Assembly (NCBI GenBank): GCA_029881055.1
Contig: JAOUNH010000004.1
Coordinates: 1 to 35,588 of the forward strand
DNA length: 35,588 bases
Direction of reading: 5' to 3'
DNA from: Gammaproteobacteria bacterium
Lineage (GTDB): Bacteria; Pseudomonadota; Gammaproteobacteria; Steroidobacterales; Woeseiaceae
Each line of letters starts with the position of its first letter. The stretch's first letter is position 1. The translations under genes were made by a program, and so were the position numbers. Positions 31,324 through 35,573 of this stretch are shown piece by piece. The notes beneath the pieces are model-generated. The model saw only the letters and a list, made by a program, of their open reading frames with translations, had not been told where the DNA came from and did not search any database.

Positions 31324-31812
31324 TTATTCGCAGTCGACCTCTTGTTTCAACAGAGCCTGAACGTCCTCGGCGGGCGGTCCGGCAGCGTCATTACCGGCGT
31401 CGAATATGATTTTCCACCTGCCGTCATCCTGCTTGCGCCAGACGGAATTGAAGGTTCCCCAGTACTCTTTTGTTACGCCGTCCTCGCCGGTCGCGACCAC
31501 TCGGAAGGGACCTCTGGACAGTGCCAGGGTGCCATCTTCAAGGACTTCTATGTACTGCGGGCGCCACATGATTTTTGGCGCCGTCTCGCCAAAGAAAACG
31601 CTCCAGGCCGCAACGACGGCTTCCGCTCCGCGCTGTACGCTGCCGCCGACAAATCGTGCGTCTGTATCGATAAAGGAGGCGAAGGCTTCTGCATCCTGAT
31701 TCTCGACCGACTGGCTAAATGCGATTTCGTGACAGCGCACGTCGTTTTCGACATCTGCGAATGCAGAGATCGGGAGGATCAACAGGCTGGCAAGCCACAA
31801 TCTGTTTTTCAT
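31324..31812 (-). CDS. exported DUF4440/SnoaL-like (NTF2-fold) protein
   Basis: A 162-residue protein with a signal peptide (MKNRLWLASLLILPISAFA) and a cone-shaped NTF2-fold domain. Family-type segments are AFASFIDTDARFVGGSVQRG, VVAAWSVFF and YWGTFNSVWRKQDDGRWKII. These domains bind small hydrophobic ligands or act as simple isomerases; function here is unknown. I prefer the start at 31812 because AAGAGAG lies 8 bases upstream and the signal peptide is then compact; an in-frame ATG at 31830 adds MKRVAN. It is divergent from the MFS gene (53 bp) and ends 18 bp after feoB, convergent with it. Confidence 0.85.
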   Translation of the reverse strand: MKNRLWLASLLILPISAFADVENDVRCHEIAFSQSVENQDAEAFASFIDTDARFVGGSVQRGAEAVVAAWSVFFGETAPKIMWRPQYIEVLEDGTLALSRGPFRVVATGEDGVTKEYWGTFNSVWRKQDDGRWKIIFDAGNDAAGPPAEDVQALLKQEVDCE

Positions 31813-31865
31813 ATTGGCCACTCTCTTCATTACCCGGTACCGGACCTTAGGCTATAGTACCCCCG

Positions 31866-33137
31866 ATGAAAGGTCTTCGCTGGTACGTTCTTGCCATCCT
31901 CGTTCTCGGCAGCGCAATAGCGTACGTGCTGCGCACCAACTTTAACATCGTCAGCGAAACGATGATGCGCGACCTCGGGCTGAACGAATACCAGTTGGGC
32001 ATGGTGTTTTCTGCATTTGCAGCAGGCTATGCGATCTTCCAGTTCCCGGGCGGCATATTCGGCGATAAATTCGGACCGCGATTCACGATCACAATAATCG
32101 CCGTTGCGTGGACTGCGCTGACGGTGCTGACGGCCGTCATACCGGGCAACGATGCGTTGTCTGTCGCGACGATAGTAGTCGCTTTGATCGTAACCCGTTT
32201 CCTGGTTGGCGCTTTTCACGCGCCGTTTTTCCCGGTCACGATCGGTGGCACGATCACTAGCTGGTTCCCGCTCAAGCAATGGGGTCTGGCCAATGGGCTC
32301 ACGAGCACCGGCCTCACGCTGGGCGCTGCAGCGACCGCACCGCTTATCGTCTGGCTGATGGATACCTATGGCTGGCGGTCGGCCCTGCTGATGACCGCGC
32401 CGGTTGGCCTGCTGTTCGCGTTTCTCTTTCACCGGTATGTCACCGACGACCCGAAGGACCATCCGCAGATAACCGATAAAGAGCTCGACCGGATTGCCTC
32501 GGACCGGCCGACCGCGGGACACGTTGCGGAGAAAGGCGCGTGGCTGGTTGCGCTGAAGAACCGCAACGTACTGCTGATCACGAGCAGCTACTTCTGCATG
32601 AATTACCTCTTTTATCTCTTCTTCAGCTGGTTTTTCTTTTACCTGACTGACATCAAGGGCATGTCGAACACGGATGCCGGCATGTTCGTTTCAGCGCAGT
32701 GGATCCTCGGCGCAGTCGGCGCAACGGCGGGCGGCGTGCTTTGCGATATCCTGGTGCGGCGCCTGGGCGTTCGAAGCGGACCACGGATACTTACAATGAC
32801 GGCGCTGATCCTGTCGGCGGCCTTTCTCTATATTGGCGCCGTCTCCGGCAATCCGGTGCTCAGTGTTGTTTTCCTGTGCCTGTCCTTTGCCTGTAACCAG
32901 ATGACCGAAGCCCCTATCTGGGTGGCAACGATGGCGGTATCCGGAAGGCATGCCCCGGTTGCGACCGGCATACTGAACACCGGCGCAAATGTGCCCGGTG
33001 TCCTCGGTGGGTTGCTGGTTCCGGTCACGGCAGGCCTGTTCGGCTGGCCGGCAGCAATGGCGACGGGTTCGATATTTGCGATAATCGGCGCCTTGTTGTG
33101 GTTATTCATCCGTGCCGATGAGCCTATGAGCGATTAG
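31866..33137 (+). CDS. MFS transporter (anion:cation symporter-like)
   Basis: A 423-residue major facilitator protein with 12 membrane helices. The loop motif FGDKFGPR between helices 2 and 3 and the N-terminal YVLRTNFNIVSETMMRDLGL fit the ACS family that imports organic acids such as hexuronates, phthalate or other carboxylates with protons. It heads a four-gene run: the BKACE gene starts 2 bp after its stop codon, then two overlapping genes. It is therefore the likely importer of the substrate handled by that operon. Confidence 0.9.
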   Translation: MKGLRWYVLAILVLGSAIAYVLRTNFNIVSETMMRDLGLNEYQLGMVFSAFAAGYAIFQFPGGIFGDKFGPRFTITIIAVAWTALTVLTAVIPGNDALSVATIVVALIVTRFLVGAFHAPFFPVTIGGTITSWFPLKQWGLANGLTSTGLTLGAAATAPLIVWLMDTYGWRSALLMTAPVGLLFAFLFHRYVTDDPKDHPQITDKELDRIASDRPTAGHVAEKGAWLVALKNRNVLLITSSYFCMNYLFYLFFSWFFFYLTDIKGMSNTDAGMFVSAQWILGAVGATAGGVLCDILVRRLGVRSGPRILTMTALILSAAFLYIGAVSGNPVLSVVFLCLSFACNQMTEAPIWVATMAVSGRHAPVATGILNTGANVPGVLGGLLVPVTAGLFGWPAAMATGSIFAIIGALLWLFIRADEPMSD

Positions 33138-33139
33138 TT

Positions 33140-34069
33140 ATGGCGAAAAAGATCATCATTACCTGCGCCGCGACCGGTTCCATACACACGCCGACCATGA
33201 GTCCGTATCTTCCGGTGACGCCGCAAGAAATAGCCGACCAGTCCGTCGCAGCGGCAGAAGCAGGCGCATCCATTCTGCATTTGCACGCACGCAACCCTGA
33301 AACCGGCCAGCCGACCGCTGACCCGGACGTGTTCATGCAATTCCTGCCGGACATCAAGAAACGTTGTGACGCGGTGATTAACATCACGACGGGTGGCAGC
33401 TCCCTGATGACGCTGGAAGAGCGCCTTGCGGCGCCGACGCTCGTCGAACCGGAGATGGCATCACTGAATATGGGATCGATGAACTTCGGCTTGTTTCCAC
33501 TGCAGAAGCGGTATGAAGACTGGAAGTACGAGTGGGAACCGAAACTGCTCGAAGCCACTCGAGATGTCGTTTTTCAAAATACGTTCGCGAACATCGAGCA
33601 GATTTTCAAAACGCTGGGCGAAGGCTGCGGTACACGATTCGAATTTGAATGCTACGACGTCGGTCATATCCAGACGCTGGCCTACTACTTGCGCGAAGGT
33701 GTGATCCAGAAACCTGTGTTCGTGCAATTCGTGCTCGGCGTACTCGGCGGTATCGACGCATCGCCGCAGAGCCTCATGCACATGAAAGCGACGGCCGACA
33801 GGCTGCTGGGTGACAACTACCAGTTCTCAGTGCTGGCGGCGGGGCGCATGCAGATTCCGCTGGCGACGCTGGGTGCGATCCTGGGCGGCAACGTGCGGGT
33901 CGGTCTCGAGGACAGTCTTTTAATCGGCAGGGAGCAACTGGCAACGAGCAATGCCGAGCAGGTGCAAAAAATCCGGCGCATCGTCGAAGAGTTGGGCCAC
34001 GAAGTCGCAACGCCAGCAGAGGCGCGCGAGATGCTGCATCTGAAAGGTGCCGACAAGGTCAACTTTTGA
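33140..34069 (+). CDS. BKACE-family beta-keto acid cleavage enzyme (DUF849)
   Basis: A 309-residue zinc TIM-barrel enzyme of the BKACE family (Kce, 3-keto-5-aminohexanoate cleavage). Such enzymes join a beta-keto acid with acetyl-CoA and split it into acetoacetate and a new acyl-CoA. Zinc ligands are visible as HLHAR (His47, His49) and Glu257 in RVGLEDS, at positions matching His46, His48 and Glu230 of Kce. The N-terminus is TCAATGSIHTPTMSPYLPVT; the position of Kce Glu14, which lines the substrate site, is Ile15 by eye alignment, so the substrate probably differs from Kce. The stop codon overlaps the TTG of the acetyltransferase gene. Confidence 0.92.
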   Translation: MAKKIIITCAATGSIHTPTMSPYLPVTPQEIADQSVAAAEAGASILHLHARNPETGQPTADPDVFMQFLPDIKKRCDAVINITTGGSSLMTLEERLAAPTLVEPEMASLNMGSMNFGLFPLQKRYEDWKYEWEPKLLEATRDVVFQNTFANIEQIFKTLGEGCGTRFEFECYDVGHIQTLAYYLREGVIQKPVFVQFVLGVLGGIDASPQSLMHMKATADRLLGDNYQFSVLAAGRMQIPLATLGAILGGNVRVGLEDSLLIGREQLATSNAEQVQKIRRIVEELGHEVATPAEAREMLHLKGADKVNF

Positions 34070-34560
34070 GCGCGAAATCCGGAATTACCACGCGCTATGC
34101 ATCGTCCGAAGATGCCGTGCTGGTGCATGCGATGATCATTGAGATGGCCCATGCGATGGATGCGCAGGCGCAAGTCCGGAGTACGGTTGAGGACTTCGCC
34201 AATGCGATGTCGGACGACAACGAGGATATTCATGTGCTGCTTGCCGAGCGGGGCAAGGTGCCGGTCGGTGTCACTATCTTTTTTTTGACGTTTTCAACCT
34301 GGCGCGGAACGCTTGGTGTCTACGTGCAGGATATTTTCGTGGCACCGGAAGGTCGTGGCACCGGGATCGGGAAAAGGATGTTGAGCGAGGTCGCGGCCTG
34401 GGCCAGCGAACGTGGTGCTGATCATCTGCGGCTGTCGGTTGATCGCGATAATGTCGGCGCACAGGCGTTTTACGAAAAAATCGGTATGAAGTTTTGCGAC
34501 GAAGAAATGATCTACCGGATTACTGGCGCGAAATTTGAAGAACTGGGATCGGGACTATGA
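34066..34560 (+). CDS. GNAT acetyltransferase, SSAT-like (polyamine-type)
   Basis: A 164-residue GNAT N-acetyltransferase. The acetyl-CoA loop is RGTGIGK (97-103), with DIFVAPEGRG before it and NVGAQAFYEKIGM (Tyr136) near the end. The segment FSTWRGTLGVYVQDIFV closely follows the pattern STWxGxxxxYLEDLFV of spermidine/spermine and diamine acetyltransferases. This suggests acetylation of a primary amine on a polyamine or diamine-like compound. It starts at TTG 34066, overlapping the BKACE stop codon (TTGA), and its own stop codon overlaps the next ATG (ATGA), so it is translationally coupled on both sides. Confidence 0.88.
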   Translation: MSAKSGITTRYASSEDAVLVHAMIIEMAHAMDAQAQVRSTVEDFANAMSDDNEDIHVLLAERGKVPVGVTIFFLTFSTWRGTLGVYVQDIFVAPEGRGTGIGKRMLSEVAAWASERGADHLRLSVDRDNVGAQAFYEKIGMKFCDEEMIYRITGAKFEELGSGL

Positions 34561-35573
34561 AGGTCATATTTTCGGAGCGGCAACGGGAACACAACCCGGA
34601 GTCGTATTTATCGTCCGGCGCAGCAGTTCCAAACCCTGAACTGCCTGAACGCGCCGACCGCTTGCTTGCCGCAGCCTTGTCGGCCGGACTTGAACCGGAG
34701 GCACCGGCAGATTACGGCGATGATCTGATCGCGTCGATTCATGCCGAGCGCTACCTCACCTTCCTTGAGAATATCCATACGCGCTGGTCGCGGATTGAGG
34801 GTGCATCGAAGGAGGTTTTGCCGAACGTACACCCCATCGAGCGCAGTGACGGCTACCCGAAGTCCGCGGTGGGGCAGGTGGGATTTCACGTTTACGACGC
34901 ATCCTGTCCAATCGCGGCCCACACCTGGCTCAGCGCCCGCTGGAGTGCGATGACGGCGGCGCATGCCGCGCAGCGAGTCATATCGGGCGACAGCGCGTGC
35001 TATGCGTTGTCGCGACCACCGGGCCACCATGCATCGCAAGACCTGGCCGGCGGATTTTGTTATCTCAACAACAGCGCGATAGCAGCGCAGCACCTGCTCA
35101 GCAAGTTTGCACGCGTCGCGATTATCGATGTCGATGTTCATCACGGCAATGGCACGCAACGAATTTTTTATGAAAGGGACGATGTATTGACCGTGTCGAT
35201 ACACGCCGATCCCATTCGCTTCTATCCGTTTTTCTGGGGGTACGCCAACGAGACAGGCTCCGGTGCGGGCCTGGGCTACAACGTCAATATTCCGCTCGTG
35301 CGCGGCACCGGTGACGAGGACTACCTCAGGTCACTGGACAAGGCGCTGACTGCGGTGGGCGATTATGCCCCGGAGGCGATCGTTATCGCGCTGGGACTGG
35401 ACGCGCATGAAGAAGATCCTTACCAGGGCATGAAGATCACAACGCCGGGATTCGCTCGCATCGCATCGCGCCTCGCAGCGCTGGCCTTGCCATCGGTGAT
35501 AGTGCAGGAGGGTGGTTATCTTAGCGATGCGCTTGGGCCAAACCTTGCATCGTTTTTGAATGGTTTTCAGTGA
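34557..35573 (+). CDS. histone-deacetylase-family acetylpolyamine amidohydrolase-like protein
   Basis: A 338-residue arginase/deacetylase-fold enzyme, almost the length of Mycoplana acetylpolyamine amidohydrolase (341). The active-site features are RPPGHHA (His157, His158), IIDVDVHHGNGT with zinc ligands Asp193 and His195, and GLDAHEEDP with Asp282. FYERGDV-like (FYERDDV) and EGGY segments are also present. These enzymes remove acetyl groups from acetylated polyamines or lysine-like amines. It is directly coupled to an SSAT-like acetyltransferase (ATGA overlap), which strengthens a polyamine-type substrate. The gene is complete; only 15 bases of the window follow it, and nothing is seen in them. 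Confidence 0.9.
   Translation: MKVIFSERQREHNPESYLSSGAAVPNPELPERADRLLAAALSAGLEPEAPADYGDDLIASIHAERYLTFLENIHTRWSRIEGASKEVLPNVHPIERSDGYPKSAVGQVGFHVYDASCPIAAHTWLSARWSAMTAAHAAQRVISGDSACYALSRPPGHHASQDLAGGFCYLNNSAIAAQHLLSKFARVAIIDVDVHHGNGTQRIFYERDDVLTVSIHADPIRFYPFFWGYANETGSGAGLGYNVNIPLVRGTGDEDYLRSLDKALTAVGDYAPEAIVIALGLDAHEEDPYQGMKITTPGFARIASRLAALALPSVIVQEGGYLSDALGPNLASFLNGFQ

Follow-up and report, generated by a model that had tools for sequence, protein, structure and literature searches.

The system closest to the one reported here is described from its enzymes. The Barker group, working with Pseudomonas around 1979-81, reportedly showed that L-beta-lysine is acetylated at N6 and then transaminated to 3-keto-6-acetamidohexanoate. 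Cleavage with acetyl-CoA is said to give acetoacetate and 4-acetamidobutyryl-CoA, from which a deacetylase/thiolesterase yields 4-aminobutyrate. N-acetyl-beta-lysine is also an osmolyte of methanogens. Here we describe an operon at positions 31866-35573 of a 35,588-nucleotide stretch of gammaproteobacterial DNA (family Woeseiaceae; assembly GCA_029881055.1, contig JAOUNH010000004.1; hereafter the window) that encodes a major facilitator superfamily (MFS) transporter, a beta-keto acid cleavage enzyme (BKACE), a GNAT acetyltransferase and a deacetylase of the histone deacetylase (HDAC) fold. We favour, with moderate confidence, the interpretation that its enzymes serve the breakdown of a diamino acid, the beta-amine being transaminated while an acetyl group masks the other amine; the most likely substrate is L-beta-lysine (3,6-diaminohexanoate) or its N6-acetyl form.

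Members of the enzyme families concerned have been characterized. For the lysine-fermentation enzyme KCE, one study describes recognition of the free 5-amine of the substrate by Glu14 (PMC10470551), and another gives E171 and R254 as the catalytic residues of BKACE15 (PMC11961710). Among deacetylases, the determinants of polyamine recognition named in two papers are E117 (PMC5454378) and E106, the gatekeeper residue and the PIS motif (PMC11532494). Among open-licence PMC papers, we found none that assigns genes to the Barker route or names its intermediates, and none that links a BKACE with a deacetylase.

Results

A tightly coupled operon at the end of the contig

The window is the entire contig C139 of a 2.8 Mb draft genome (label G000) that is 84% complete. 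As a sequence-only reading of this DNA had described, four genes near its end are coupled with spacings of +2, -4 and -4 bases. The Pfam scores of all four proteins exceed the Pfam cut-offs.

31831-31865, no strand: 35-base gap between a divergent SnoaL-like gene and the operon, a possible operon promoter site judged from sequence alone
31866-33137, plus strand: MFS transporter, putative substrate importer (423 aa; MFS_1 180 bits)
33140-34069, plus strand: BKACE (309 aa; PF05853 365 bits)
34066-34560, plus strand: GNAT acetyltransferase, proposed beta-lysine N6-acetyltransferase (164 aa; Acetyltransf_1 62 bits)
34557-35573, plus strand: HDAC-fold zinc deacetylase, proposed to act on 4-acetamidobutyrate or 4-acetamidobutyryl-CoA (338 aa; Hist_deacetyl 254 bits)

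The GNAT gene starts with TTG, overlapping the BKACE stop codon. Because the contig ends 15 bases past the deacetylase gene, genes downstream of it are not visible. On the other side, a secreted-looking SnoaL/DUF4440 protein is encoded at 31324-31830 on the minus strand, with 35 bases separating its start codon from that of the operon.

An aminotransferase, a GNAT and a deacetylase accompany the BKACE

The conserved unit is class III aminotransferase-BKACE-GNAT-deacetylase. A scan of named genomes returned 562 BKACE relatives, of which the best 80, a set rich in Mesorhizobium, were kept; neighbours were counted in the 64 of these loci that are flanked by 3.5 kb or more of sequence in each direction, taking partners within 3.5 kb and ignoring matches below 60 bits. 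Locus counts include near-copies, and some genomes of the window's genus are present twice. The aminotransferase was found near the BKACE in 48 of the 64 loci, the GNAT in 44 and the deacetylase in 50. All three partners were present in 42 of the 64, so that these loci encode together all four enzyme types reported for the Barker route, and no partner was present in 13. Partial sets comprised aminotransferase with deacetylase (5), deacetylase alone (2), GNAT with deacetylase (1) and aminotransferase with GNAT (1). None of the 64 loci carried a copy of the aminotransferase, GNAT or deacetylase solely at greater distance.

Hosts of the cassette include Mesorhizobium, Rhizobium, Phyllobacterium, Nioella and several Gammaproteobacteria, and Thalassospira carries it without the GNAT. 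The closest BKACEs among the best 80 (84-87% identity) come from metagenome assemblies of Gammaproteobacteria or Proteobacteria. Within the genus, 12 searched genomes including the window's own have a BKACE of at least 78% identity, the copy in G064 being cut by a contig end. Ten relatives have a full-length close BKACE, and in nine of them the GNAT and the deacetylase come immediately after it; with the occurrence far outside the genus, this makes the arrangement more than a chance one. The more distant BKACEs of G014 and G081 (51-53% identity) have neither within 20 kb. A BKACE is also carried by 119 plasmid records. Nine of these were inspected, one of them without annotation; the complete gene order was found on four (Phyllobacterium, Pararhizobium, Roseateles sp. 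XES5 and Shinella sp. PSBB067) and was missing on four (Aminobacter, Shinella zoogloeoides, Roseovarius and Azospirillum). In Roseateles XES5 and Shinella (loci including L128) an amino-acid ABC importer lies upstream of the four genes, which are followed by a LysR gene and then by a 4HBT-type thioesterase. Leaving aside a 23% match in L105, 11 of the 98 loci searched have a homologue of this thioesterase within about 8 kb of the BKACE.

Two further observations concern these neighbourhoods. A DMFA-like hydrolase (N,N-dimethylformamidase beta-subunit type) is encoded at 6905-8593 of L035 and in 39 other loci; in rhizobial cassettes its gene lies upstream of that for the aminotransferase, whereas in L037 and L039 it precedes the BKACE. 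In L033, recorded as an Acidimicrobiia bacterium, the BKACE is 80% identical to that of the window and the layout resembles that of L031, with an S58 gene and a second deacetylase nearby; either mis-binning or a recent transfer between phyla would account for it.

The transporter behaves differently. An 87% identical orthologue occupies the same position only in G002 among the genus and best-80 loci examined, and a 59% identical copy lies beside the cassette on the opposite strand in L034. The best model for the protein, a D-galactonate transporter, scores 218 bits against a cut-off of 395. The MFS gene is a local gene and no conserved cassette member, and we rejected it as a defining one. The sequence-only reading had treated all four genes as a unit and asked whether they come together only in this genome: for the three enzymes they do not, the acetyltransferase and deacetylase being conserved BKACE partners (44/64 and 50/64 loci), and for the transporter they nearly do, G002 being the one addition. 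The key partner, the class III aminotransferase, was invisible to that reading because it lies outside the operon in this genome.

A separated aminotransferase

A first type of class III aminotransferase stands immediately before the BKACE in seven genomes of the genus. The window's subgroup has a second type, about 38% identical to the first, which lies after the deacetylase in G002 and about 3.3 kb (G041) and 5.1 kb (G001) from the BKACE. The window genome encodes an orthologue of this second type on contig C245, 81% identical to the protein of G002 and 69-70% identical to those of G041 and G001, and this enzyme is probably the partner of the window operon. Since the orthologue lies on C245 here but adjoins the operon in G002, we regard the window operon as a rearranged general cassette and not as a new combination.

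On C245 (L183, 2811-9668) the aminotransferase is clustered with a zinc alcohol dehydrogenase, an FAD oxidase, a tyrosine phenol-lyase and a polyamine-type deacetylase, and in G002 (L015) a set resembling this cluster adjoins the MFS-BKACE-deacetylase operon. The match to the first type in G007:C123 and G040:C9 contains one stop codon; the gene may have decayed, the draft may be in error, or the match may extend beyond the end of the gene.

The BKACE falls on the side of the tree with deacetylase neighbours

The window BKACE matches PF05853 over the whole domain (365 bits, cut-off 24.8). We built a tree of 99 BKACEs, including the two distant rows from G014 and G081. On the cassette side 68 of 71 rows have a deacetylase neighbour, and in the sister set none of 26; two of the three exceptions are contig ends (L058 and L065), and the third, L036, has an aminotransferase and a GNAT. 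The deacetylase-neighbour label requires 3 changes on the tree, against 26.8 when shuffled, with a weakly supported basal split (81/60). S87, F197, F229 and a few further positions set the cassette BKACEs apart from the sister set. E170 and R253 are invariant in all 99, and, judged by alignment ranges, most likely match E171 and R254 of BKACE15.

The window BKACE also passes the equivalog model NF053538, named for the triacetate-type substrate 3,5-dioxohexanoate (510.6 against 430), as does the Thalassospira cassette BKACE at 534 bits. Because a cassette member of this kind passes too, the model does not single out triacetate, and we rejected its name as the function of the BKACE. NF053538 exceeds its cut-off on BKACEs of aminotransferase/GNAT/deacetylase cassettes (window and L105), so that its name probably covers too little of the range of proteins it matches.

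The deacetylase has lost the polyamine-binding residues

We aligned 68 cassette deacetylases (64 distinct) and 27 controls (26 distinct) with the acetylpolyamine amidohydrolase (APAH) of M. ramosa, MrAPAH, and with PsApaH. The complete zinc and histidine site seen by the sequence-only reading is there: D193, H195, D282, H157, H158 and Y321 are each retained in all 68 cassette copies. They correspond to D195, H197, D284, H158, H159 and Y323 of MrAPAH. The substrate class named in that reading, acetylpolyamines, did not gain support. The position of MrAPAH E106 (window V105) is V in 68/68 cassette copies, and that of E117 (window S116) is A in 50 and S in 18. At the gatekeeper position I291 the cassette copies have F (58), L (8) or Y (2), and 14 of the 27 controls have I. 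The F27 position is P in 67/68 and the Y168 position F in 68/68, and the PIS gatekeeper motif of bacterial polyamine deacetylases reads PYQ in the window deacetylase. Controls have D (14), P (5), G (3), T (1) or a gap (4) at the E106 position. By its sequence, the deacetylase is not a typical polyamine enzyme. The same genome encodes a deacetylase with the polyamine-type D/PIS signature on C245. Seven genomes of the genus (L141-L146 and L148) have such a D/PIS deacetylase without a BKACE match.

A deacetylase matching at E 1e-100 or better was present in 6 of 368 other genomes drawn from the class. No BKACE was found within 12-18 kb around four of the six, so the deacetylase subfamily appears wider than the pathway; neighbours of these class-level copies (nine proteins, three loci) follow no single theme. 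Arg221 was considered as a carboxylate clamp and rejected as a main clue, being absent from all 6 further copies and lying where the structural model is unreliable.

The acetyltransferase is nearest to a thialysine acetyltransferase

The GNAT has the FSTW...QDIFV segment noted in the sequence-only reading. Its best solved relatives are 2fe7, a 'probable N-acetyltransferase' (75 bits), and the thialysine acetyltransferase 12jc (74 bits), followed by diamine acetyltransferase 2 (53 bits) and diamine acetyltransferase 1 (about 28 bits). Its closeness to acetyltransferases of thialysine, a lysine-like compound, counts in favour of the route proposed below. NCBIfam presumably contains an AblB model, and this model was absent among the 25 NCBIfam families that the GNAT matched at E 0.001.

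KamA and S58 genes in the genus

A further operon of the window genome (C223, L177, 5637-10719, plus strand) encodes a KamA-like radical SAM protein, two ATP-grasp proteins resembling D-Ala-D-Ala ligase, and a 584-aa GNAT-deacetylase fusion; it looks like a pathway for a peptide of beta-lysine or another beta-amino acid. In the fusion protein (about 585 aa) a GNAT part at the N-terminus (31.5 and 34.9 bits, cut-off 20.7) precedes a deacetylase domain at the C-terminus; the window GNAT matches the GNAT part only at E 0.84. This layout was seen in G000 and, by its frames, in G040, and 3-4 kb from KamA in G002, G041, G049 and G066 there is a frame of 582-588 aa that encodes a deacetylase domain. 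Among the relatives searched, eight of the 12 genus cassette genomes have a KamA orthologue (at least 73% identity), all scoring under the AblA cut-off, and other genomes of the same genus reach at most 277 bits. The only solved relative found is lysine 2,3-aminomutase, 2a5h, whose D293 and D330, residues that bind the lysine amine, are kept by alignment count. KamA of the window genome scores 470 bits against the AblA cut-off of 525. Because KamA is not general among the hosts, beta-lysine would come from outside in most of them.

A gene of S58, the peptidase family that comprises beta- and D-aminopeptidases, lies within 5 kb of the BKACE in 7 of the 12 genus cassette genomes (G001, G015, G040, G041, G055, G066 and G058, the last cut by a contig end). 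The solved relatives of the G001 protein are 2drh, a D-aminopeptidase (282 bits, the top match), and 3n2w, a beta-peptidyl aminopeptidase (268 bits). S58 genes are common in general, being present in 47 of 119 relatives. In the window genome, C238 (L182, 698-5947) encodes a TonB receptor, an NhaC-family transporter and an S58 protein about 71% identical to the cassette-side S58 of G015, G055, G066 and G040. For the products of the proposed route, the genome has an acetoacetyl-CoA synthetase in two contig-end pieces (577 bits, over the cut-off, and 394 bits) and an SSADH-like gene (626 bits, cut-off 646).

Discussion

A proposed route for beta-lysine

From the genes, their families, their conserved linkage and the loss of polyamine-binding residues, all of which are observed, we infer a substrate, an order of steps and a chemistry as follows. 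The substrate would be taken up by the MFS transporter in the window genome and by SSS or amino-acid ABC importers elsewhere. The GNAT would use acetyl-CoA to form N6-acetyl-beta-lysine, and the class III aminotransferase (in the window genome probably that of C245) would convert this to 6-acetamido-3-oxohexanoate. With acetyl-CoA, the BKACE would then release acetoacetate and 4-acetamidobutyryl-CoA. Removal of CoA, either by a thioesterase or by the deacetylase, and deacetylation by the HDAC-fold enzyme would lead to 4-aminobutyrate and acetate. The acetyl mask would stop the free amine from closing a ring on the 3-ketone. Beta-lysine is favoured because the cassette has one family for each step reported for the Barker route. 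The route is further supported by the conserved linkage, the tree, the GNAT relatives, the altered deacetylase residues and the importer and thioesterase genes of Shinella and L128, and independent hints come from the KamA operon and S58 genes of the genus and from the acetoacetyl-CoA synthetase and SSADH-like genes. The suggestion of the sequence-only reading that an amine is masked, in a diamino acid such as beta-lysine, gains support as the best interpretation of these sequences; its statement that no such pathway had been described gives way to the reactions reported by the Barker group for L-beta-lysine. The chemistry is of a known kind. As far as checked, the novelty lies in assigning genes to these reactions, in an HDAC-fold enzyme having been recruited and in the connection with the KamA operon.

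If the assignment is right, the cassette supplies candidate genes for N6-acetyl-beta-lysine transaminase, 3-keto-6-acetamidohexanoate cleavage and acetamidobutyryl-CoA deacetylase, three activities to which, as far as we know and have searched, no sequences had been attached in four decades. The assignment would also account for the cassette in many rhizobia and marine bacteria, correct the 'acetylpolyamine' and 'histone deacetylase' annotations of a whole subfamily, and open the fate of N-acetyl-beta-lysine to genomic study. A more inclusive version holds that the cassette represents the long-missing genes of aerobic beta-lysine catabolism, that an HDAC-fold enzyme was recruited as 4-acetamidobutyryl-CoA deacetylase, and that in the genus the KamA/ATP-grasp/GNAT-deacetylase operon makes beta-lysyl peptides, which would offer S58 beta-aminopeptidases a natural substrate. 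We consider this version unlikely.

Several observations weigh against beta-lysine breakdown or against parts of the argument for it. The BKACE passes a model named for 3,5-dioxohexanoate, and no SCOT-type subunit was found in the 84% complete window genome. The cassette is not uniform: 7 of the 50 deacetylase-bearing loci have no GNAT match at the score used, L037 and L039 have neither aminotransferase nor GNAT, and G002 lacks the GNAT while retaining MFS-BKACE-deacetylase. The DMFA-like hydrolase, present in 40 of 98 loci, has no role in the proposed scheme, and upstream of the Thalassospira cassette stands a polyamine-type PotB-like permease (under its cut-off). The E106 and E117 places are occupied by H and G in PsApaH, which is itself a polyamine deacetylase, and at the E117 position the 27 controls include G (11), F (6) and S (3) and are acidic (D) in just 2; because PsApaH lacks both acids and most controls lack an acidic E117, the loss of these acids alone is not proof. 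Arg221 is kept in 67/68 cassette copies but in 0/6 further deacetylases, two of them BKACE-linked (with D and V), and the AlphaFold2 model has pLDDT (predicted local distance difference test) values below 50 at residues 221-225. Only 2 of the 6 class-level deacetylases adjoin a BKACE, both with an aminotransferase and without a GNAT match. As to the source of beta-lysine, KamA occurs in 0/99 BKACE loci and is lacking or weak in four genus cassette genomes; across 33 cassette genomes, 17 have no KamA match, 7 reach just 288-313 bits, and none attains the AblA cut-off. An orthologue is also present in G110 and G086, of another family, without a BKACE match, and the co-occurrence of KamA with the cassette was counted without correction for the kinship of the cassette genomes. 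Finally, an S58 gene is near the cassette in 5 of 80 loci, all of the genus type (L028-L031 and L033), and the top solved relative of the S58 protein is a D-aminopeptidase.

Alternative substrates

The same masking logic could serve another diamino acid, such as 3,5-diaminohexanoate, beta-ornithine, compounds related to 2,4-diaminobutyrate, or peptide-derived beta-amino acids. The ABC importers are only of 'amino acid' type, with the ectoine EhuA model (336.5, cut-off 345.4) and the cystine and arginine models all under their cut-offs, and the two aminotransferase types that accompany the cassette are only about 38% identical. Promiscuity of enzyme families is general knowledge, and the BKACE family is described as promiscuous in PMC4922564. 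Against this, D293 and D330 of lysine 2,3-aminomutase are both conserved in the KamA-like protein found in the genus. Beta-lysine is moreover reportedly the sole such compound for which these reactions have been described, and we regard a different diamino acid as possible, if somewhat unlikely.

Polyamine catabolism would place the GNAT and deacetylase on (acetyl)polyamines, with a polyamine:pyruvate transaminase and with the BKACE acting on a downstream beta-keto acid. The nearest solved deacetylases are named acetylpolyamine amidohydrolases, the polyamine:pyruvate transaminase 9j4z is among the solved relatives of the aminotransferase (237 bits), and the Thalassospira permease is PotB-like. 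The polyamine-binding acids of MrAPAH are however lost in 68/68 cassette copies, and the separate D/PIS deacetylase of C245 is encoded in the same genome; on these two grounds we rejected the polyamine route and hold it improbable. Nor, apart from malonate semialdehyde, is any product of polyamines known to us as a beta-keto acid that a BKACE could use. Malonate semialdehyde is given as non-native for a BKACE in PMC11961710.

The NF053538 score would agree with a route through triacetate (3,5-dioxohexanoate), known from phloroglucinol breakdown, in which the GNAT and deacetylase were unrelated passengers or protein regulators. We think this very improbable, since the Thalassospira cassette member passes the same model and such a route leaves the conserved linkage with aminotransferase, GNAT and deacetylase without a purpose. 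No phloroglucinol-pathway partner genes were found among the scanned neighbours (the genome was not searched for them by name). We give almost no credence to detoxification, in which the GNAT and deacetylase would act on a beta-lysine antibiotic such as streptothricin and the remaining enzymes would recycle beta-lysine: streptothricin acetyltransferase is the best NCBIfam match of the GNAT (45 bits, cut-off 420) and nourseothricin acetyltransferase 5c82 matches at 40 bits, but these scores are far under the cut-off, the neighbouring deacetylase would reverse resistance, and amino-acid importers are encoded alongside in two loci.

Comparison with known systems

Breakdown of beta-lysine, the interpretation we prefer, connects the cassette with several known systems. 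With the Barker route in Pseudomonas (EC 2.6.1.65 and EC 3.5.1.51) it shares the reaction types of acetyltransferase, transaminase, acetyl-CoA-dependent beta-keto cleavage and deacetylase/thiolesterase. That route consists of enzymes whose genes were not found in the literature searched, whereas the cassette consists of genes alone, and the window operon lacks the aminotransferase. The window BKACE belongs to the same family as the lysine-fermentation KCE/BKACE enzymes (2y7d and 8rip), with which it shares the HLHAR motif and the Glu and Arg matching E171/R254. It differs at the place of KCE Glu14, which is I15 if the alignment is gapless and is V or I in 71/71 cassette copies, and also in 26/26 of the sister set.

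The window deacetylase is similar over its whole length to MrAPAH (3q9b) and PsApaH (9gkz), at 269 and 283 bits, and shares their family and catalytic residues; compared with MrAPAH it carries E106 to V, E117 to S, PIS to PYQ, F27 to P and Y168 to F. Similarity of the GNAT to thialysine N-epsilon-acetyltransferase (12jc) and diamine acetyltransferase 2 (2bei) is nearly full-length, at only 53-75 bits, and 12jc shares the STW...(D)(I/L)(F/Y)V segment. The AblA/AblB system for synthesis of the osmolyte N-epsilon-acetyl-beta-lysine involves the same metabolites, and the window genome has a KamA relative. AblA/AblB is biosynthetic, whereas the route proposed here would be one of breakdown, with KamA under the AblA cut-off and the GNAT without an AblB match.

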